Positions 37,538-48,796 of a stretch of DNA of 64,000 nucleotides are shown here, in pieces; within the stretch, counting starts at the first letter, position 1; the number at the start of each line of letters is the position of its first letter. Position numbers and translations under genes: made by a program. This DNA comes from Phycisphaerae bacterium (GTDB lineage: Bacteria; Planctomycetota; Phycisphaerae; UBA1845; PWPN01): contig JAGNEZ010000005.1 in NCBI GenBank assembly GCA_018003015.1, positions 62,001 through 126,000 of the forward strand, read 5' to 3'. Below the pieces are notes generated by a model, which was given only the letters and a program-made list of their open reading frames with translations, was not told the DNA's origin and searched no databases.

Positions 37538-38038
37538 TCAGGATGCCGACCGGTCGTGCATCCGACCGATCAACTCCGTCGATGAGCGATCCTTAGGACC
37601 ACCCACATTGGCCAGCCGAATGCCTAGTCGGCGCAGCGTGGGATACTCCGGCAGGTTCTCCGGGGTGTAGTCGGGCCCCTTGGCATGAACGGCCGGAAGC
37701 ACCAGCTCCAGTATCGCGTCACAGGTCGGCTCGTCGAACCAGGTGACGATATCGACGCAGCCCAGTGCCGCCACGATCTCCATCCGCTCGGCCAGCGGCT
37801 GCAAGGGGCGCCGGGGATCCTTGTACTTCTTGATCGACTCGTCGCTGTTCACCCCGACGACGAGCACGTCCCCTTCGGCGGCCGCCCCCTGCAGGTAACG
37901 AATATGCCCGACGTGCAGGAGATCGAACGCCCCATTGGCAAACACGATCCGCCTGCCCTCGGCGCGGAGAGCATCGGCAGCACGTCTCAGCTCCTGATGA
38001 TCGATGATGATCCGACTCACATGCTCATCCCGCTGCAC
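37538..38038 (-). CDS. rfaE2: D-glycero-beta-D-manno-heptose 1-phosphate adenylyltransferase
   Basis: Adds AMP to heptose 1-phosphate to make the ADP-heptose used for LPS inner core. The 166-residue enzyme has the nucleotidyltransferase signature NGAFDLLHVGHIRYL, VGVNSDESIKKYK, and the C-terminal KGPDYTPENLPE and RSSTELIGRM. It corresponds to the C-terminal half of fused HldE proteins, here as a separate gene whose start overlaps the kinase gene rfaE1 by 14 bases. With waaF upstream this makes a short LPS heptose operon, indicating a lipopolysaccharide-bearing outer membrane. Confidence 0.92.
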   Translation of the reverse strand: MQRDEHVSRIIIDHQELRRAADALRAEGRRIVFANGAFDLLHVGHIRYLQGAAAEGDVLVVGVNSDESIKKYKDPRRPLQPLAERMEIVAALGCVDIVTWFDEPTCDAILELVLPAVHAKGPDYTPENLPEYPTLRRLGIRLANVGGPKDRSSTELIGRMHDRSAS

Positions 38039-39032
38039 TGGAGCGATTCACCGCGGCCGCCAGCTCCGCCGGCGAAACCGTCGCCGCGCCTTCTTTCATC
38101 ACCACAACACCGCCCGCATGATTCGCCAGACGAGCAGCAGTCTCGATGTCCGCACCACCGGCCAGGGCAGCCGTCAACGTCGCCGCCACCGAATCACCCG
38201 CCCCGGTCAGATCCACAATCTCGTCGCTGCCGCTGGCCGGAATGCGAACCGTCCGCCCCTCCGTCACCAGAACCATCCCCTGGTTACCCAGCGTCACCAA
38301 TGCCGATCGTGCCTCCAGCCGCGCGGCCAACGCGGCCGCCAGCATCGCCACCTCGCCGGCCTGCAGGCCCAACTGCCGGGCGACCACCTCGGCTTCCTCC
38401 TCGTTCGGCTTGATGACCGACATACCGGTGAACTTGGCCAGTTCCCACCGCGAGTCCGCTACCACCGGCTTCCGCTCGGCGATCTTCCGCAACAGCACCC
38501 GCAGCGGCTCATCAAAGCTGCCGTAGCCGTAGTCGCTGGCCACCCACGCATCAACCTCGGCATCGACACGCTCGACACGGGCGCGCAGATCGGCCAAAAG
38601 GCGATCGTCCGGAGGATCAGCCGGCTGGCGGTCCAGCCGCAGGACCTGCTGCCGGGAAGTGAGCTTCGCACCCGCCAGAAAACGAGTCTTGGTGATCGTA
38701 TCACGGCCGCGAGTCACCACGACCATGCCGCATCGCACCGCCCCGGATTCACTCAGCGAAGCCAAGAGCCGCCGTCCGGGATCGTCGTCGCCGACAAGCC
38801 CAACCAGATGAGCGATTCCTCCAAGCGCGGCCACATTCGCCGCCACGTTCGCCGCCCCACCCGGGCGAAGCCACTCATCCTCGTGGCAAACGATGAGCAC
38901 CGGGGCCTCGCGCGAAACACGGTCACTCCGGCCGCTGACATAGAGGTCCGCGACCAGATCGCCCACGATGCCGACCTTCGCGCCAGACAAAAGCCGAATC
39001 GCATCAGTCAGTTGCGGTACATGGGAACACAT
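38025..39032 (-). CDS. rfaE1: D-glycero-beta-D-manno-heptose-7-phosphate kinase
   Basis: A PfkB-family sugar kinase that phosphorylates heptose 7-phosphate at C1. The 335-residue product shows the two PfkB signatures RPGGAANVAANVAALGG (about 60) and DLTGAGDSVAATLTAAL (about 270), with the catalytic Asp in the latter. ATG at 39032 is used because it matches the family N-terminus; the ATG 17 codons upstream adds unrelated residues. Its 3' end overlaps rfaE2, so kinase and adenylyltransferase are made together, replacing the single bifunctional HldE of enterobacteria. Confidence 0.92.
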   Translation of the reverse strand: MCSHVPQLTDAIRLLSGAKVGIVGDLVADLYVSGRSDRVSREAPVLIVCHEDEWLRPGGAANVAANVAALGGIAHLVGLVGDDDPGRRLLASLSESGAVRCGMVVVTRGRDTITKTRFLAGAKLTSRQQVLRLDRQPADPPDDRLLADLRARVERVDAEVDAWVASDYGYGSFDEPLRVLLRKIAERKPVVADSRWELAKFTGMSVIKPNEEEAEVVARQLGLQAGEVAMLAAALAARLEARSALVTLGNQGMVLVTEGRTVRIPASGSDEIVDLTGAGDSVAATLTAALAGGADIETAARLANHAGGVVVMKEGAATVSPAELAAAVNRSSAAG

Positions 39033-39060
39033 GATCAATGATCGCCGACCTGCTACGGCA

Positions 39061-40191
39061 TCAGGTCGCAGCGGCGGCCGCACGCCCCTTGAGCAGCTCT
39101 ATGGCCGCCGCGAGAACCATGTCGCTGCTGATTCGCGTCATGCAGCGGTGATCGACGGAACACTGACGCTTCATGCAAGGCCCGCAGTCCACGGGCACAT
39201 GCAGCTCCTTCTCGCTGGCTACCTCGGTCGCCGTCCACTCCCGATCCGTCGGGCCGAACATCGTGACTACGGGCGTGCCGAACGCATTGGCAAAATGACG
39301 TGGCCCGGTGTCGTTGGTGATCAGCAGACTCGATCGGCGAATGAGAGCCTTCAACGGCCCCAGCCTCATGACCGGATTGTCCAGCACCGTCGGACGCTGC
39401 CGCATGTGGCCAGCCACCCTCCGGGCTACGTCAATCTCCTTCGGACCACAAGCGATCAGGACCGCCGCGCTCATCTGCTCGACGAGCCGATCGGCCACTT
39501 CCGCGAACCGCTCGGGCACCCAACACTTGGCCGGGCCATAGGCGGCACCAGGATTCAACACGACCACGGGCTGGCCAGGCTGCACGCCGGCCGCCTCGAG
39601 GGCATCGGTCGCCACCTGCTCCTGCTCCGGCGTGGTGAACAGCTCGGGCACCATCGGGCAATCTCGGCAACCGAGATACCGGGCGATCGCGTTGTAGTAA
39701 CGGATCATGGAAACCGGCACGAACTTGCCGTCAAACTTGTGCGGCAGCAGCTTGTCCGTCAGAAGCAGCCCCCGTCCGTCCCGGTCATAGCCGATCCGGC
39801 GAGGAACCCCCGCCAGCCGAGCGAACAAGGCCGCCCGAAACGAATTGCACATCAGCAGGGCCCAATCGAATTTCCGGTCCCGGAGTTCACTCGCCATACC
39901 CAGAAAGCTCTGACGACGTGTGTCCCGGGTCTGACCACCAGGCCAATGGACCAATTCGTCGAACCAGTCACCCCCCGCCAAGACCTCAGCCATCGGTCCC
40001 TTGACCACGCCGGTCAGGTGGATGCCGGCGAACCTCGCCCGGATCGACCGCAAGGCCGGTGTCGCCAAGACCAAGTCCCCCACCCAGTTGGGCAGGATGA
40101 TGAGAATGCGGGCAGGATCCGGCCGCCGGAAACGCGTCTTTCCGCCGGGAGGGTCAGCCGCACCGTGATCGGAATGAGCCTCTTGTGGCAT
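39061..40191 (-). CDS. waaF: ADP-heptose:LPS heptosyltransferase (glycosyltransferase family 9)
   Basis: A 376-residue glycosyltransferase that adds heptose to the LPS inner core. GT-B landmarks are ILIILPNWVGDLVLATPALR at the N-terminus, VVLNPGAAYGPAKCWV and LLITNDTGPRHFANAFGTPV in the C-terminal ADP-heptose-binding half. The KxWP-type motif and the NDTGPRH motif favour WaaF (heptosyltransferase II). Two ATGs are possible, 40200 and 40191. The upstream one overlaps a TAGAAT -10 box, so the downstream one is used and the mRNA would be nearly leaderless. First gene of waaF-rfaE1-rfaE2. Confidence 0.88.
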   Translation of the reverse strand: MPQEAHSDHGAADPPGGKTRFRRPDPARILIILPNWVGDLVLATPALRSIRARFAGIHLTGVVKGPMAEVLAGGDWFDELVHWPGGQTRDTRRQSFLGMASELRDRKFDWALLMCNSFRAALFARLAGVPRRIGYDRDGRGLLLTDKLLPHKFDGKFVPVSMIRYYNAIARYLGCRDCPMVPELFTTPEQEQVATDALEAAGVQPGQPVVVLNPGAAYGPAKCWVPERFAEVADRLVEQMSAAVLIACGPKEIDVARRVAGHMRQRPTVLDNPVMRLGPLKALIRRSSLLITNDTGPRHFANAFGTPVVTMFGPTDREWTATEVASEKELHVPVDCGPCMKRQCSVDHRCMTRISSDMVLAAAIELLKGRAAAAAT

Positions 40192-40198
40192 GGGCGAC

Positions 40199-40227
40199 AT
40201 TCTAGGCTATCGGCCCTCAAGGCTCAA
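40199..40227 (-). promoter_or_regulatory. Promoter of the heptose operon
   Basis: On the minus strand TTGAGC (40227-40222), 17-base spacer, TAGAAT (40204-40199). Seven bases separate it from the ATG at 40191. Confidence 0.55.
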
Positions 40228-40784: not shown

Positions 40785-41048
40785 ATGTCACGGGTTTGCT
40801 ACTTTACCGGCAAGAGGACCAAGAGCGGCCGTCAGTATGCCCGACGCGGCAAGGCCAAGTACCTGGGTGGCGTGGGTTCCAAGGTCACCGGCCGGACCAA
40901 GCGGCAGTTCAAGCCGAACGTCCAGAAAGTCCGCGCAGTCATCGACGGCAGAACCGTCCGCGTCCTGGTCAGCACCAAGGCCATTCGCGACGGCAAGATC
41001 GTCAAGCCGCCGAAGCGCAACTACAAGCCCGCTCAAACCACCGCTTGA
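40785..41048 (+). CDS. rpmB: Ribosomal protein bL28
   Basis: An 87-residue basic protein of the large ribosomal subunit. The start MSRVCYFTGKRTKSG and the RRGKAKYLGG(V)GSKVTGRT segment correspond to the family pattern in which a GKxxxxGxxxSHAxxxTKR-like stretch lies at the N-terminus. VRVLVSTKAIRDGKIVK matches the conserved C-terminal helix. Only one Cys is present, so this is the zinc-independent form. It is a single gene with its own promoter. Length is normal for bacteria (about 70-90). Confidence 0.95.
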   Translation: MSRVCYFTGKRTKSGRQYARRGKAKYLGGVGSKVTGRTKRQFKPNVQKVRAVIDGRTVRVLVSTKAIRDGKIVKPPKRNYKPAQTTA

Positions 41049-41225: not shown

Positions 41226-42425
41226 TCAACCGTGCCGCCCCCGCTGCCTGGGCATGCCACCCTTCCCAAAGGACGCCTCCCCCTTGATGTAGTCCTTCTC
41301 CGCGAAGAGCTTGAGGAGCTCCTCGACCGATCGTACCACCACGGTCGCGCTCTTGGTCACGAACGGGGAGGGCTCGGCCTTCGGCTTCCAGACCACATAG
41401 ACCTCCTTCGTGGTTTCGTAGGCATGCTGCAGCTCGCGCTCGACGCCACTGGACAGCCCCGGCTTGCCACTCGGCAACTCCGGCACGTAGCTGACAATCA
41501 TGTCCGACTGATCGATGAGCTTGAAGTCGCGAGCCACGATCTGGCTGTCAATGTCAGTCTCGATCGCCATGACTTCTTCGACGCCGAACTCCATGGTCCG
41601 GCCGTGTATCTCGACCAGGAGCTTCCGTTCGCCGCGTTTGTGGGCCGCTGCGGCCAGCGACGGCAACCGCTTCTCGTCCAGGTCGCCAGGGTCAAAAGTG
41701 ATGAAGTGGCTCGCCAAGGCGTCTCGGAATCCGTCGATCTCCGCCAGGACGGCCGGCAGATCCATCACATGGCTCATCGGGAACGAGGGGTAGACCTTCT
41801 TGCGCCTGGGCTCGAACATGAGCCGGTAAACGCACTCGGCCATGTCGTGCTCGACGCCCCGGGCGACAATGAAGAACCGCCCATGACCTCGGATGATCGT
41901 CGAAATGACCTCGGTAGCCAAAACCTCTTCCTCACGCCAGACCAAAATGTCCTTGAGACTGTGCCGGAGGTCGTGCTCACGGGTCAGTCGCTCGTGCACG
42001 GCGTCCACGTTGTCCACCAGGGTCATGAACAGATCGACGTCCAGAGCCATGATCTGATCATGGTCGAACGCCGGAAACAGGCCGTGCTTCCACCGAAACG
42101 TGGCGTGAGTATTGACCAGGACGTGGTCGGCCTTCTCCGCAATCCGCAGAATATCCTTGAAAACCGACCGCCGGAGAGCATCGAGCCGGGTCCGCGGCAG
42201 GTCCAGGATCCGTCCCGCCACGACGTCCGGAGCCTCTTGGTACATCATGTCACCGACGTGGCAGACGGCCACATCCTTGCCGTTCCGGCGGGCGATGTCG
42301 GCCACACGCTCAATGAACGGCTTCTTGTCAACCCCTACCTGGCCGGTCATCATCGCACGAACACCGGCCCGTCTGCGGTCGAACAGCGTTCTTTCACCTG
42401 CACCCTTCGACATCAGGCTCTCCAT
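41226..42425 (-). CDS. Adenylate-kinase-like / nucleoside-deoxyribosyltransferase-like fusion protein, function unknown
   Basis: A 399-residue cytoplasmic protein I cannot name. Residues 25-130 resemble archaeal-type adenylate kinases: a loop TGQVGVDKKPFIERV in the place of the P-loop (Asp and Lys-Pro instead of Gly-Lys-Ser/Thr), then VCHVGDMMYQEA and VLVNTHATFRWKHGLFPAF. The C-terminal third (about 300-375) resembles nucleoside 2-deoxyribosyltransferases: FKLIDQSDMIVSYVPELPSG and SSGVERELQHAYETTKEVYV. A role in nucleotide handling is suggested. The altered P-loop makes phosphotransfer uncertain. Two nearby ATGs (42425, 42413) each have a GGAG-type site. Confidence 0.7.
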   Translation of the reverse strand: MESLMSKGAGERTLFDRRRAGVRAMMTGQVGVDKKPFIERVADIARRNGKDVAVCHVGDMMYQEAPDVVAGRILDLPRTRLDALRRSVFKDILRIAEKADHVLVNTHATFRWKHGLFPAFDHDQIMALDVDLFMTLVDNVDAVHERLTREHDLRHSLKDILVWREEEVLATEVISTIIRGHGRFFIVARGVEHDMAECVYRLMFEPRRKKVYPSFPMSHVMDLPAVLAEIDGFRDALASHFITFDPGDLDEKRLPSLAAAAHKRGERKLLVEIHGRTMEFGVEEVMAIETDIDSQIVARDFKLIDQSDMIVSYVPELPSGKPGLSSGVERELQHAYETTKEVYVVWKPKAEPSPFVTKSATVVVRSVEELLKLFAEKDYIKGEASFGKGGMPRQRGRHG

Positions 42426-42504: not shown

Positions 42505-42573
42505 ACGATCACTTTGAGCAAGGCTCGAGAGAACAGAACGGCGTCCGCCGCACCTTGGATCCGCGAGGATCGC

Positions 42574-43755
42574 ATGCCCAGTCTCGACGAGATCATGTGG
42601 CTGCGATCCGCCGAAGGACAGGCCATCTGCGCGGATATGGCCGGCAACTCACCCGCGGACACGCCGGCAGCCATCACTCGCTGGCGCCAACGCCTCGAGC
42701 CCGGGCAAGTCACGGCTGCCTGGCAACAGGTCCTGTTCCGCCGATCCGCGCGGGCCAAGTTCTCACGCGCCGACCTGATGCTCTTCGACCGCGTGGCCCT
42801 CGAGCAGGCCACCGACGAAGTGCTGGCCCGCCACAAGGCCAAGCGCTTCCAGAATCGTTCGCGAATCGCAGACTTCTGTTGTGGAATCGGCGGCGACGCC
42901 CTGGCTCTGGCCGAGTTCGCATCTGTCACGGCCATCGACTGGTCGGCGGCTCGGGCAACGATGGCCGAACACAACGCATGCATCTATGGCAACCGGATCG
43001 ACATCCTGACCGAGGACGCCGGCATCACCCGACCGGAAGCAGACGCCGCTCACATCGACCCCGACCGCCGTCCTGCCGGAGCACGAAGACACCGCATCGA
43101 GGAGAGCTCACCCGGTCCGCAGGTCCTGAAACAGATCGTCGATCGCTACCAGAATGTGGCCGTGAAGCTCTCGCCGGGCGCGGACTTCGAGAACCTGCCG
43201 TTCGACGCGGAAATCGAACTGATCAGCCACCGCGGCGAGTGCAAGCAAGCAGTCGCCTGGACCGGGGCGTTTCGGCAGGCTCGGCGACGGGCAACCGCGT
43301 TTCCGAGCGGCGAGTCCATCGTCGCAGGACCCGAAGAAAACCTCCTCTGGCCCCCGGCAGCTGCAATCCGGCCCAGCATGCTGCTCTTCGAGCCGGACCC
43401 GGCCGTCATCCGAGCCAACCTCGTCGGCATCCTGGCCCGCCAATACCAACTCAACCCCATCGACCCGCATATCGCCTGCCTGGTCGGAAAGACGCTGCCC
43501 CAAACTACGCTGCTGGCGGCCTTCAGAGTCCTCGACATGAGCGATTGGTCGGCCGCCCTCGGACGCCAAATGCTCGCCCGCCACAACGTCGGCCACGTCG
43601 ACATCAAAACCCGCGGCTTCGCTGGAAAGCCCGAGGAAGTCCTCAAATGCCTCCATCCGCGCGGCACGCGCTCAGCCACACTCATGCTCACCCGAATCGG
43701 AGACCGACCAACGGCCATCCTCGCCGAACGTGTGCCGCCGCAGGCAGACTCGTGA
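42574..43755 (+). CDS. SAM-dependent methyltransferase with THUMP-like domain
   Basis: A 393-residue protein. The middle carries a Rossmann methyltransferase fold: IADFCCGIGGDALALAEF, VTAIDWSAARATMAEHN and HIDPDRRPAGARR, whose DPxR-type motif occurs where base- or RNA-methylating enzymes hold the target. The C-terminal half with HIACLVGKTLPQTTLLAAFR and HVDIKTRGFAGKPEEVLK matches the THUMP-like domain fused to this family. RNA is the likely substrate, but this is inferred from the family. ATG at 42574 follows GAGGATCGC; a TTG at 42514 is the alternative. It is divergent from the kinase-like fusion gene. Confidence 0.8.
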   Translation: MPSLDEIMWLRSAEGQAICADMAGNSPADTPAAITRWRQRLEPGQVTAAWQQVLFRRSARAKFSRADLMLFDRVALEQATDEVLARHKAKRFQNRSRIADFCCGIGGDALALAEFASVTAIDWSAARATMAEHNACIYGNRIDILTEDAGITRPEADAAHIDPDRRPAGARRHRIEESSPGPQVLKQIVDRYQNVAVKLSPGADFENLPFDAEIELISHRGECKQAVAWTGAFRQARRRATAFPSGESIVAGPEENLLWPPAAAIRPSMLLFEPDPAVIRANLVGILARQYQLNPIDPHIACLVGKTLPQTTLLAAFRVLDMSDWSAALGRQMLARHNVGHVDIKTRGFAGKPEEVLKCLHPRGTRSATLMLTRIGDRPTAILAERVPPQADS

Positions 43756-44030: not shown

Positions 44031-44398
44031 CGGAACGCCTCGCTGTCTTATCGGACTCTCATCCATACACCGAAAGGCACGATAGCCGACCAGCAAGTGC
44101 CGCAAGACCGGTATTCAAAGGGCTTTCGCAGCGAATCCTCCCACCGGCAGGCACCATAACCCATGTATGCCAATTCTGCAGACTCCTCATCTTGGGGTAG
44201 TTTCCTGTCGATAACGGGCCTGTATCTCAAGGCGGCCAGCCAAACTCGCGGGCTCAGTCAGCAGCTGCCCGGTTCGGCATCCGCTTGGTAAAGCGCGACT
44301 TACGGGGGTCGCCACCCAACTACAACCTCCGGGACCCAATGAGAAGCCTGGTTCCGCCCAAGGCTCACCCGTGGGCGGTTGCCGCTCAAGGAACAGTG
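44031..44398. other. Region upstream of the propeller protein gene
   Basis: About 370 bases between divergent genes. No clear promoter pair, repeat or RNA gene is seen. Confidence 0.4.
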
Positions 44399-47300
44399 AT
44401 GGCACGGCTTATCCGTTTCGCATGCACGCTTCTCGCCTCCAGCCTGCTCCTCGCCCCTCCCGCGCAAGCGGGCTGGGAGCCTGTCGGGACACCCGGCTTC
44501 TCCAGCAGCACAGCCAACTACGAGTCCTTCACCTTCTGCAACGGCGAGCCGTACGTCGCCTTTCAAGACGCCTCCCAGACCAACAAGGCGACGGTCATGC
44601 GCTACACGGGCGGGAGCTGGCAGGTCGTCGGCACCGCCGGCTTCTCGGCCGGGACCGCTGCATATCTCTCGCTGGCCTTTAACGGCGAAGAACCTTACGT
44701 GGCCTTTCAGGATGCCACCGTCAGCAGCAAAGCCACGGTCATGTGTTACAGCGGGGGAAGCTGGCAACTGGTCGGCACCGCCGGAATCTCGGCCGGAACC
44801 GCTACCTACACATCGCTTGCCATCCACAACGGCGAACCCTACGTGGCCTACCGAGACGCCGGCACATCCAACCGAACCCTCGTGAAACGCTACACCGGCG
44901 GGGCTTGGCAGACCGTCGGCGGGACCGGAGCCTCACCCAGCACTTCGAACTACGTCACCCTTGCCTTCGACAACGGCGAAGCCTACGTCGCCTACCAAGA
45001 CAGCTCCAACGGCAGCAGAGCCACCGTCAGACGATTCACCGGCGGAAGCTGGCAGACCGTCGGATCGGCGGGCTTCTCCGCGGGGACGGCCACCCATCTG
45101 TCCCTGGCTTTCGACAACGGCGAACCGTACGTGGCCTACCAGGATGCCGGGAACGGCACCCGGGCCACGGTGATGCACTATACCGGCGGAAGCTGGCAGA
45201 CCGTCGGATCCGCAGGCTTCTCCGCCGGGGTCGCCGCCTACGAGTCCATCGCCCTCTACAACGGCGAGCCGTACGTGCTCTACCAGGACGCCACAAACGG
45301 CAGCAGGGCCACCGTCATGCGCTACACCGGCGGGAACTGGCAGACCGTCGGCCCGGCGGGCTTCTCCACCGGCGCTCGCTACTACGGAGCGATCGCCTTC
45401 TTCAACGGCGAGCCGTACATCGCCTATCGCGATTCCGCACTCGCCAGCAAGGCCGTCGTTCTCCGCTACATCTGGCCCCCCACAATCCAGGCGTCCAACG
45501 TCACCCTCAGCGGCATCACCGCGACTCAAATGAACGTGAGCTGGACCCGCGGCGACGGCAGCGCCTGCGCGGTGTTCATGAGCCAGGCTTCCTCCGGCGA
45601 AGCGGCGCCCGCGGACAACACGACCTATGCGGCGAGCACCACATTCGGGAACGGCATGCAGATCGGAACGACCGGTTGGTTCTGCCTCTACGTCGGTTCC
45701 GGAGCGAACGTCACTGTCACCGGCCTGACGCCGGCCGCAGCCTATCGCGTCATGGTCTGCGAATACACCGGCTCGGTGGGTAAGCAGGATTACCTGCTCG
45801 GGGCCGCCACCGAAAACCCGGCCAACGTCGCCACACTCGCCTATCCGCCCACAGTCACAACCGCCGCCGTCACCGATATCGGAGCCACAACGGCAGTCTG
45901 CGGCGGCGAGGTCGCCTCGGACGGCGGAGCCACCGTCTTCGCCCGCGGCGTATGTTGGAACACCACCGGTACGCCAACCACCACAGACAACAAGACCATG
46001 GATGGCACAGGCACGGGGGTCTTCGCGAGCACACTCACCAGCCTCAACCCGGGAGCGACCTACCACGTCCGCGCCTACGCCACCAATGTACAGGGCACCA
46101 GCTACGGCGCGGAGGTGGAGTTCACAGCCAACCCAGTGCCGTCCACAGTGAATACCGCTGCGGTCACGAACGTCGGCTCAACCACCGCCACCTGCGGCGG
46201 CGTTGTCACCGCAGACGGCGGTGTTGCGGTCACGGCCAGGGGGGTATGCTGGAACACGACCGGCAACCCGACCACCGCGGACAGCTTCACAACCGACGGT
46301 GCCGGCACCGGGGCGTTTGTCAGCAGCCTCACCGGCCTGAACCCCAACCTCACCCACTACGCCCGAGCCTATGCCACCAATTCGCAGGGCACGAGTTACG
46401 GAACCGAGGTCGCATTCACCACCGACACCGGCCCACCGGCGGTGACCACCGCGGCGGTGACCAACGTCACCGCAGACACCAGCACCTGCGGAGGCAACGT
46501 GACCGGGGACGGAGGCCTCGCCATAGATGCCCGCGGCGTCTGCTGGAACACGAGCGGAAATCCCACCACCGCCGACAACTCGACCACGGACGGCGCCGGC
46601 TTGGGTGCATTCGTGAGCAGCCTCACCAGCCTGACTCCAGGAATCACCTATCACGTGAGAGCCTACGCCACCAACGCACGCGGCACGAGCTATGGCGATG
46701 ACGTCCAATTCACGACCGGAACCACCCTGCCAACCGTGACCACCGCGGGAGTCACCGACGTCACGGCAACCACGGTGTCATGCGGCGGCAACGTCACCTC
46801 GGACGGCGGACTCGAAGTCACCGAACGCGGGGTGTGCTGGAACACAACGGGAAACCCGACGACCGCAGACAGTAACACGGTCAACGGCACGGGAGCCGGG
46901 ACCTTCTCCGTCAGCATCGCCAGCCTCAATCCCAACACCACCTACCACGTACGCGCCTACGCCATCAACGCGCTCGGCGCCAACTACGGCCACGACGTCG
47001 AGTTCCTGACCAGCGCCGCACCGCCAACCGTGACCACGTCCGCGGTCATGGGGGTGACCTCGACAACGGCCATCTGCGGAGGCGCAGTCACCGACGACGG
47101 CATGGCCGCCATCGCCACCCGGGGAGTCTGCTGGAACACGACCGGAAACCCGACAACCGCGGACAACAAGACCGCAGACGGAGCGGGGCTCGGCACGTTC
47201 GTCAGCAGTCTCACCGACCTCAGCCCGGGCGTCGGCTACTACGTCCGCGCCTACGCAGCCAATGCCCAGAGCACCGGCTACGGCGACACCGTTCATTTCA

Positions 47301-48796
47301 CCACCGGCAGTGTCCCGCCCACCGTCGCCACCGCCGCGGTCACCGGAGTATCCGCCACTCAGGCATGCTGCGGCGGAAACGTGGTCTCCGACGGGGGAAC
47401 CCAAGTCGCCGCTCGAGGCGTATCCTGGAGCAAGGCCGACGACCCAACCACGGCACATACCAAGACCGTCGACAGCACCGGCATCGGTGCCTTCACCGTC
47501 ACCCTCGTCGACTTGAGCCCCAATACCCTCTACCTCGTCCGGGCGTACGCCACCAATGCCCGAGGCATCAGCTTCGGCTCGAATGTCGAATTCCGAACCG
47601 GCATGGTGTCCCCGACCGTCGTCACCTCAGAAGTCATGGGCGTCACCTCCACCACGGCCATGTGCGGCGGCAATGTCACCGCCGATGGTCTGGCCGAGGT
47701 CACCACCCGCGGCGTGTGCTGGAACACGACCGGCAACCCCACCACCGCTGACCGCAAAACAACCGACGGCGCCGGTACCGGAGTGTTCATCAGCAGTCTC
47801 ACCGATCTGAGTCCCGGCGTCGTCTACTACGCCCGCGCCTATGCCACCAACGCCCAGAGTACCGGCTACGGTGAACAGGTCGATTTCGTGACCGCCACCA
47901 CTGCACCTACCGTGACCACCACCGCAGTCACCAACGTGACCGCCACAACGGCCACTTGCGGCGGCCACGTGACCGCCAACGGCGGGGCCGAACTCAGCGC
48001 CCGAGGCGTCTGGTGGAACAAGGCGGACGAGCCCACGACCGCATACAGCAAGACGGTCGACGACACGACCACCGGACCGTTCGCCCTTAGCCTCACCGGC
48101 CTCAGCCCCGATACCGTCTACCATGTCCGGGCGTTCGCCGAGAACCCGGCAGGAACGTCCTACGGCGAGGCCCTGACCTTCACGACGACACCATCCGAAG
48201 TCGTTCCCGGCTTGGTCGTGGAAGCCGCCGCAGCCGAGGGAAACCCGAACGGGCCCGTGACAGTAGGCCAGGAACTGCGGCTCCTGATCACGGTGCAGAA
48301 CGCGGGAACAGCCCGCGCTCACCAGGTGACGGTGATCATTCCCATTCCGCCCAGGACCGAATACGTGTCCGCCCGACTCATCGAGAATACCGCCGTGCCG
48401 ACCGTGCTCGGCGACCTCCAGTCTGGGACACTCTATGTTAACCTGGACGATCTGACTCCAGGTGAACGAGTCGAAGTCGAACTCGTCCTCCGAGTGACCG
48501 CGGCTGGCCAGATCGCCGTATCCGCGGGCGCATGGAGCGCTCAACACACCGAGCTTGTGCTTAGTGCTCCAGCCCAGATCACGGCTCGCGAGGACTCCTC
48601 AACCGCCGGCAACTTGCCGGCACCGTTGACCTGCGGGGCAACCGGAACCCTGCCGTTACTCGCCTGCCTCACGGCCTGGGTCGCCAGGTACTCCAGCCTC
48701 AGGACCTGTTCGCCACCCAGCCGTTCAGCCCGTCGTCAGGAGGCGGGCGAAGCACATCGCCGGACGTTCCGAACATCACGCCTTCAAAGGCCTTGA
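44399..48796 (+). CDS. Large secreted protein: seven-bladed propeller plus eight FN3-like repeats
   Basis: A 1465-residue exported protein. The signal peptide MARLIRFACTLLASSLLLAP ends PAQAG. Residues about 25-360 hold seven 48-residue units of pattern WQTVGxAGFSxGTAxYxSLA then NGEPYVAYQD and TVMRYTGGS, the number for one seven-bladed beta-propeller. One FN3-type domain follows (about 365-480). Then come eight units of about 98 residues, each with a CGG, a RGVCWNTTGNPTT and a YHVRAYATNxxGTSYG segment. A DUF11-like domain (about 1280-1400) with VGQELRLLITVQNAGTARAH precedes a C-terminal CGATGTLPLLACLTAW stretch that may anchor it. ATG 44399 has AAGGA upstream. Probably a surface adhesin or polymer-binding protein; no catalytic motif seen. 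Confidence 0.85.
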   Translation: MARLIRFACTLLASSLLLAPPAQAGWEPVGTPGFSSSTANYESFTFCNGEPYVAFQDASQTNKATVMRYTGGSWQVVGTAGFSAGTAAYLSLAFNGEEPYVAFQDATVSSKATVMCYSGGSWQLVGTAGISAGTATYTSLAIHNGEPYVAYRDAGTSNRTLVKRYTGGAWQTVGGTGASPSTSNYVTLAFDNGEAYVAYQDSSNGSRATVRRFTGGSWQTVGSAGFSAGTATHLSLAFDNGEPYVAYQDAGNGTRATVMHYTGGSWQTVGSAGFSAGVAAYESIALYNGEPYVLYQDATNGSRATVMRYTGGNWQTVGPAGFSTGARYYGAIAFFNGEPYIAYRDSALASKAVVLRYIWPPTIQASNVTLSGITATQMNVSWTRGDGSACAVFMSQASSGEAAPADNTTYAASTTFGNGMQIGTTGWFCLYVGSGANVTVTGLTPAAAYRVMVCEYTGSVGKQDYLLGAATENPANVATLAYPPTVTTAAVTDIGATTAVCGGEVASDGGATVFARGVCWNTTGTPTTTDNKTMDGTGTGVFASTLTSLNPGATYHVRAYATNVQGTSYGAEVEFTANPVPSTVNTAAVTNVGSTTATCGGVVTADGGVAVTARGVCWNTTGNPTTADSFTTDGAGTGAFVSSLTGLNPNLTHYARAYATNSQGTSYGTEVAFTTDTGPPAVTTAAVTNVTADTSTCGGNVTGDGGLAIDARGVCWNTSGNPTTADNSTTDGAGLGAFVSSLTSLTPGITYHVRAYATNARGTSYGDDVQFTTGTTLPTVTTAGVTDVTATTVSCGGNVTSDGGLEVTERGVCWNTTGNPTTADSNTVNGTGAGTFSVSIASLNPNTTYHVRAYAINALGANYGHDVEFLTSAAPPTVTTSAVMGVTSTTAICGGAVTDDGMAAIATRGVCWNTTGNPTTADNKTADGAGLGTFVSSLTDLSPGVGYYVRAYAANAQSTGYGDTVHFTTGSVPPTVATAAVTGVSATQACCGGNVVSDGGTQVAARGVSWSKADDPTTAHTKTVDSTGIGAFTVTLVDLSPNTLYLVRAYATNARGISFGSNVEFRTGMVSPTVVTSEVMGVTSTTAMCGGNVTADGLAEVTTRGVCWNTTGNPTTADRKTTDGAGTGVFISSLTDLSPGVVYYARAYATNAQSTGYGEQVDFVTATTAPTVTTTAVTNVTATTATCGGHVTANGGAELSARGVWWNKADEPTTAYSKTVDDTTTGPFALSLTGLSPDTVYHVRAFAENPAGTSYGEALTFTTTPSEVVPGLVVEAAAAEGNPNGPVTVGQELRLLITVQNAGTARAHQVTVIIPIPPRTEYVSARLIENTAVPTVLGDLQSGTLYVNLDDLTPGERVEVELVLRVTAAGQIAVSAGAWSAQHTELVLSAPAQITAREDSSTAGNLPAPLTCGATGTLPLLACLTAWVARYSSLRTCSPPSRSARRQEAGEAHRRTFRTSRLQRP
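44472..45479 (+). repeat. Seven 144-base repeats encoding propeller blades
   Basis: Seven consecutive 48-codon units, all the same length, beginning at Trp codons (WEPVG, WQVVG, WQLVG, then four WQTVG). DNA as well as protein is repetitive, for example repeated forms of GGCGGAAGCTGGCAGACCGT, so the copies are recent or homogenised. Confidence 0.85.
45845..48196 (+). repeat. Eight repeats of about 294 bases encoding FN3-like units
   Basis: Units start at PTVTT- or STVNT-like motifs near 45848, 46142, 46439, 46730, 47027, 47321, 47615 and 47912. Each carries one CGG and one RGVxWN motif. Unit seven and unit five are more alike than neighbours (both have MGVTSTTA), which points to duplication of two-unit blocks. 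Confidence 0.8.

Follow-up and report, generated by a model that had tools for sequence, protein, structure and literature searches.

In passages of PMC10603095, DNPH1 (Rcl), a 2'-deoxynucleoside 5'-phosphate N-hydrolase, is described as having a Y24/D80/E104 triad, with the phosphate held by S98. For MilB, the part of PMC4081090 consulted reports that S97 and G99 touch the phosphate and that E103 is essential. In the deoxyribosyltransferase (NDT) of Chroococcidiopsis (CtNDT), mutants of Y7, D62, and E88 are named in Protein Data Bank (PDB) titles. According to excerpts of PMC12884076, phage DutZ–DmtZ pairs an NDT/DNPH1-like domain with one that acts on nucleotide phosphates, either as neighbours or in a single chain; DmtZ, an NDT-family protein likened to DNPH1, has dAMP hydrolase and deoxyribose 5-phosphate transfer activities and makes dZMP. 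A fusion from Zobellia galactanivorans, HGPRT/adenylate kinase, is described in a portion of PMC7326950 as an active bifunctional enzyme, and sections of PMC3710099 place NDT domains in defence proteins and abortive-infection fusions.

Here, we analyzed a gene in a 64,000-nucleotide stretch of DNA (the window) from a Phycisphaerae bacterium, which joins a domain resembling archaeal adenylate kinase (AdkA) to an NDT/DNPH1-like domain. Both folds are known; what is new is the architecture and the remade kinase site. The standard annotation reduces the protein to 'AAA domain', and no description of the fusion was found in the literature searched (open-licence PMC papers). As far as the excerpts describe it, DutZ–DmtZ likewise pairs an NDT/DNPH1-like domain with a phosphate-acting one; however, its partner is dUTPase-like rather than kinase-like, and it is phage-borne and tied to Z-DNA. 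By analogy, this pairing is a precedent showing that such domains can be biochemically useful together. The Zobellia enzyme, as described in the same portion of its source, also combines a base-exchanging enzyme and an adenylate kinase in one chain, but HGPRT belongs to another glycosyl-transfer family.

Gene and domain arrangement

The gene, its two domains, and its tail are located as follows:

41226..42425, minus strand: whole gene, AdkA-like/NDT-like fusion; 399-aa ORF with an ATG start
41811..42368, minus strand: archaeal adenylate kinase-like domain, residues 20–205 (Pfam AAA_17; PDB profile match to 6ln3, E 2.3e-10; VIA Z 20.3)
41286..41810, minus strand: NDT/DNPH1-like domain, residues 206–380 (AlphaFold2 pLDDT 92; matched to 7o62 and DNPH1 by VIA and to 7o62 by Foldseek)
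41229..41264, minus strand: C-terminal tail, residues 388–399, ending RGRHG; low confidence, common to part of the family

A small convergent ORF lies on one side of the gene (40785–41048, plus strand) and a divergent gene for a THUMP-like methyltransferase on the other (42514–43755, plus strand; Pfam), so the fusion gene stands alone. From the look of its sequence, we take the small ORF to encode a bL28-like ribosomal protein. The fusion ORF is more than a chance reading frame: a match was present in 38 of 41 genomes (its own and near relatives), and comparison with the copy of a congener (L002) gave a dN/dS of 0.056. Against more distant copies, dS was about 1 or higher, which makes dN/dS less reliable there.

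Elsewhere in the window, two adjacent, overlapping genes on the minus strand (37538–39083 and 39061–40200) encode CTP_transf_like and PfkB kinase proteins, and a heptosyltransferase-family gene adjoins them (Pfam); the pair at 37538–40200 resembles a split HldE/RfaE pair. On the plus strand, 44285–48796 holds a 1503-aa ORF with an N-terminal repeat run (GEPYVAYQDA...) followed by many GVCWNTTGNPTT-type repeats, and its product is probably a secreted repeat protein.

AAA_17 covered residues 28–150 of the fusion protein (E 5.2e-7) and was found in 22/22 family members in the Pfam search; no other Pfam family lay on the rest of the chain. PF05014 (Nuc_deoxyrib_tr) was not among the Pfam families of the fusion protein itself at E up to 1 and, at the same threshold, appeared weakly in 8/22 family members, the best at E 0.016. 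Unlike the NDTs, none of these 22 members had a firm PF05014 match.

The full-chain AlphaFold2 model, built from a 22-sequence alignment, had a pLDDT of 84.1 and a pTM of 0.84, the latter suggesting a defined domain arrangement in the model. Residues 20–204 superposed on the PDB chains 6pjw and 3h86 (Z 20.3, rmsd 2.0 Å, 182 residues), and residues 206–378 on 7o62, a 2'-deoxyribosyltransferase (Z 15.2, rmsd 2.2, 132 residues). When the C-terminal half was modelled alone (pLDDT 92.0), its best fold match was again 7o62 (Z 17.6, rmsd 2.1, 132 residues), with DNPH1 (8rpt) at Z 16.0, rmsd 2.8 over 131 residues, and MilB (4jel) at Z 13.8; the flavodoxin-like NDT fold is therefore present. Foldseek also placed 7o62 on top (E 6.4e-5), and the TIR-type Thoeris protein ThsB2 (8v6t) stood low in its list (E 2.8e-3). 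In the viral fold library, all matches to the fusion model were low-confidence or single-domain-like. A sequence-only reading of this DNA had proposed a fusion of adenylate-kinase-like and deoxyribosyltransferase-like domains; both sequence and predicted structure bear this out, with two folds side by side and no single known fold over the entire chain.

A tail of the form RG[RK]xG was seen in 30/81 family members, and many others have no tail; it is predicted to be disordered, with pLDDT <50 for most of it.

Predicted catalytic residues of the NDT/DNPH1-like half

Three motifs had been singled out from the letters: GQVGVDKKP (residues 28–36), IDQSDMIVSYV, and SSGVERELQHAY (residues 325–336). 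The last of these contains two of the predicted functional residues of the C-terminal half:

41790..41792, minus strand: Tyr212, predicted catalytic Tyr (DNPH1 Y24, CtNDT Y7); 80/80 of the sequences with a letter there, aligned with the invariant Tyr of the NDT relatives
41526..41528, minus strand: Asp300, predicted acid (DNPH1 D80, CtNDT D62); 80/80, placed by an hhalign column whose probability is only 9.7% and by a bridge via the L125 NDT
41433..41453, minus strand: SSGVERE, residues 325–331, with predicted 5'-phosphate Ser325 and nucleophile Glu331 (DNPH1 S98, E104); 80/80 for each of these two residues
41367..41369, minus strand: Ser353, possible second phosphate Ser (DNPH1 S128'), assigned by position only; 80 Ser and 1 Gly among 81

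Y212, D300, S325, and E331 occurred all together in 80/81 fusion sequences, the other (L095) being unreadable at these columns. The sequence link between the C-terminal half and the NDTs is weak, and the assignment rests on the fold and these residues. A profile search of the C-terminal half against PDB sequences found no NDT, and hhalign against ten NDT relatives matched up the Asp and Glu columns and gave E 0.0033 but the low probability noted for Asp300. When seven family members were aligned by MAFFT with seven NDT relatives, columns of Tyr, Pro, Ser, Gly, Glu, and Ala stayed invariant, the S325 and E331 columns being shared in this way with the relatives. The L125 NDT bridges the family to CtNDT (8pqr). 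The likeness to NDTs (PF05014; 7o62) comprises catalytic columns as well as the fold, and the fusion architecture sets the family apart.

The likeness to DNPH1 extends to the fold, the Tyr/Asp/Glu triad, and the spacing of the phosphate Ser, which lies 6 residues before the Glu in the fusion (325/331) as in DNPH1 (S98/E104) and MilB (S97/E103). However, the fusion is 16–22% identical to DNPH1 over the aligned part, its predicted Asp300–Glu331 stretch spans 31 residues versus 24 in DNPH1, and a kinase-like domain is fused in the planctomycete protein. A Ser at the phosphate position is also found in 9/10 NDT relatives; S325 is therefore no proof of specificity for nucleotides over nucleosides.

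From the residues kept, the C-terminal chemistry is probably the known cleavage or transfer of an N-glycosidic bond, and the glycosidase half is well supported. In the double-displacement route of the NDT/DNPH1 family, the domain would cut or transfer the base of a (deoxy)nucleoside 5'-monophosphate: Glu331 would attack C1', Asp300 would protonate the leaving base, Tyr212 would assist catalysis, and Ser325 would hold the 5'-phosphate. The earlier suggestion of unknown nucleotide chemistry accordingly needs narrowing: it probably does not fit the chemistry of the C-terminal half, but it still applies to the substrate and to the role of the kinase half.

Two further observations concern phage genes. 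The phage gene L132 (1–519), annotated 'TIR domain-containing protein', aligned with the NDT relatives and is possibly mis-annotated. Furthermore, Caulobacter phage NDT-like genes (L136; matches H4 and H5) overlap or adjoin genes whose annotation is ribosylnicotinamide kinase or nicotinamide-nucleotide adenylyltransferase; here, too, an NDT is paired with an enzyme that acts on nucleotides.

The remade site of the kinase-derived half

Two stretches of the N-terminal half depart from AdkA (PRK04040/NF003122; PDB 6pjw, 3h86, 6ln3, 7owe):

42321..42344, minus strand: altered P-loop GQVGVDKK, residues 28–35; the Gly before the Lys is Asp/Glu and the Ser/Thr after it is mostly Lys
42072..42113, minus strand: NTHATFRWKHGLFP, residues 105–118, the AdkA 'DTHA' loop with Asp replaced by Asn, plus further invariant residues; residues 109–118 of low confidence

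The AdkA fold extends over the entire N-terminal half, and the GxxG, the P-loop Lys, and the TH of DTHA are shared. In contrast, the fusion has Asp/Glu-Lys-Lys where the AdkA P-loop has Gly-Lys-Ser/Thr, and NTHA for DTHA; it is also joined to an NDT-like domain and found in bacteria. Against the NCBIfam model of archaeal adenylate kinase (PRK04040), it scored 26.4 bits, far under the equivalog cut-off of 155, and none of 26 class genomes had a PRK04040 match over that cut-off.

The altered P-loop pointed out from the letters is real, and its changes are held across the family. GxxG was present in 78/78 fusion sequences with a readable letter and the Lys (K34) in 76/78; the preceding residue was Asp (67) or Glu (10) in 77/78; the Ser/Thr after the Lys was missing in 76/78, with Ser in the other 2. 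The DTHA-loop Asp was Asn (N105) in 80/80. All three exchanges occurred together in 75/78 readable sequences, the exceptions being L068, L077, and L087. Moreover, R86, H107, R111, W112, H114, W163, R164, and E166 were each found in 80/80. Because the new residues are held (N105 in every readable sequence, K34 in nearly all), the site appears to have been kept and not to be decaying; judged from the alignment, it looks remade under constraint. Residues 109–118 were mostly invariant yet had a pLDDT <50, which would fit a mobile active-site loop.

In P-loop kinases, the P-loop Ser/Thr and the DTHA-loop Asp handle Mg-ATP. Both were kept in all five AdkA alignments examined, and their replacement in the fusion (76/78 and 80/80) argues against the main rival to the explanation we prefer, a working if unusual kinase. 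Under that explanation, the protein would be a true bifunctional enzyme, its N-terminal half still phosphorylating a nucleoside or nucleotide and its C-terminal half making or breaking the same nucleotide in salvage or base exchange. The retention of K34 and GxxG speaks for it, as do the HGPRT/adenylate kinase fusion characterised in the part of PMC7326950 cited above and the Caulobacter phage NDT genes beside annotated kinase or adenylyltransferase genes. Three of the five AdkA alignments, those of Methanococcus adenylate kinases, have no P-loop Lys (GVGGTT); archaeal adenylate kinases thus tolerate change in this loop, and an altered P-loop need not mean a dead kinase. On balance, we consider a bifunctional enzyme unlikely. 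The fusion as the cell's only adenylate kinase was ruled out by an ordinary one elsewhere in the genome (PF00406, E 4.9e-48).

The loss of the metal-handling residues could also be read as a sign that the whole protein is a structural or regulatory pseudo-enzyme with neither half catalytic. This is the least probable of the explanations weighed here, given that the four catalytic and phosphate residues of the NDT-like half stay together across the family.

Distribution, neighbourhood, and proposed function

The sequence-only reading had named taxonomic spread as one check on the fusion. The gene was carried by 127/150 sampled genomes of the class Phycisphaerae; in a phylum sample of 392, it was found in its own genome, in 37/40 class-mates, and in 1/351 other phylum members. 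Another phylum sample of 294 genomes gave 23 matches, one of which (G231, outside the class; 91 residues, E 6.4e-4, 37% identity) we took as chance; the 392-genome search did not have it. The other match outside the class, in G263, came up in both phylum samples; it was full-length but lay on a 6.6-kb contig, and of 17 genomes from its class only G263 had a match, so it is contamination or transfer. Among the best 80 of 423 relatives from a contig scan, 79 had planctomycete titles, mostly Phycisphaerae, and one (L061) was titled Alphaproteobacteria. Zobellia galactanivorans, host of the HGPRT fusion, belongs to another phylum.

Identity was 98% in the genus, 61–80% in the family, and 60–67% in the order (41-genome set), and 48–61% in other class-mates (150-genome sample, incomplete copies included). 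This fall with kinship is as vertical descent predicts, and descent seems mostly vertical. The gene was missing from 23/150 class genomes and is therefore not essential to the class; the absences were grouped (3/3 genomes of family f13 and all those listed for f109, f114, f116, and f118), which suggests lineage loss. In a few genomes (G008, G016, G445, G475, G504), the gene was present twice or in two pieces. In 26 class genomes, profiles of the kinase and NDT halves matched in the same 13, once each and adjoining; the other 13 had neither half, and neither was found apart from the other. A stand-alone NDT replacing the absent fusion was rejected: PF05014 was found in 2/13 genomes without the fusion and 2/13 with it, showing no pattern. 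In these genomes, the model does not pick up the C-terminal half of the fusion itself.

Neighbours were compared in 67 of the 80 relative loci (those >8 kb), where uneven flanks and mechanical gene calling mean that a partner present in only some members of the class could have escaped notice. The commonest was a CAP-domain lipoprotein-like protein (19/67), followed by a VitK2_biosynth protein on the other strand (16/67), an ORF family without a Pfam match that largely overlaps the VitK2_biosynth gene on the opposite strand (15/67), and a SpoIIE/FHA/GAF protein (12/67). These recurring neighbours look like the local synteny of one lineage. No operon partner was conserved in most of the 67 loci, and no neighbour pointed to a pathway.

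The NDT-like domain had earlier been taken as a hint of nucleotide-based signalling or defence. In a protein of that kind, the kinase-like half would sense and the NDT half make or destroy a signal. NDT domains in abortive-infection fusions (as described in parts of PMC3710099) and the presence of ThsB2 in the Foldseek list favour this idea, but the searches went against it. PADLOC returned 0 families for the fusion protein at E up to 1, and PHROGs a single chance-level match (E 0.36); tblastn against phages and plasmids gave no match at E up to 0.1, and the 15 pattern stretches that turned up in viral contigs included no relative. A scan of ten neighbour representatives showed no recurring defence neighbour. 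A single gene that is nearly class-wide, evolves under purifying selection, and in most loci lacks a conserved neighbour does not look like a defence gene or mobile element, and we hold a signalling or defence role to be very unlikely. By contrast, a mostly vertical, class-wide, lone-standing gene fits metabolism.

Within metabolism, the protein might serve biosynthesis, as a phosphodeoxyribosyltransferase that exchanges bases to produce a modified nucleotide, in the way phage DmtZ produces dZMP. The triad is common to hydrolases and transferases, and DmtZ has both activities (excerpts of PMC12884076). However, the loci compared showed no gene for modification, a polymerase, or a dNTPase conserved alongside the fusion, and the fusion was not phage-borne in the collections searched, which makes this route improbable.

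Our preferred explanation, advanced tentatively, is that the protein is a (deoxy)nucleotide N-glycosidase or phosphodeoxyribosyltransferase in which a kinase-derived domain binds a nucleotide and selects or gates the substrate without phosphorylating it. The N-terminal domain would descend from an archaeal-type adenylate kinase, keeping a constrained nucleotide site. It would have lost Mg-ATP phosphoryl transfer, and its putative role would be to bind a nucleotide and thereby choose, deliver, or gate what the glycosidase half acts on. The two domains, their folds, the kept residues, and the distribution are observed, whereas the activity, substrate, and gating are what we infer; the likeliest purpose would be to clear an unwanted nucleotide from the pool.

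A more specific proposal, which we regard as possible but doubtful, is an allosteric nucleotide N-glycosidase whose former kinase serves as a magnesium-free nucleotide sensor, switching nucleotide destruction on or off. With Lys35 at the metal-holding Ser/Thr place and Asn105 in place of Asp, the site would read one nucleotide, which might be damaged or modified.

The fusion with its remade kinase site, carried by most genomes sampled across Phycisphaerae, points to a nucleotide-handling step in this class. If the kinase half is indeed a sensor, the protein would be a clean case of a phosphoryl-transfer site turned regulatory and a bacterial analogue of DNPH1, a nucleotide sanitiser, and it would give planctomycetes of this class a class-wide nucleotide-pool control without a described counterpart.
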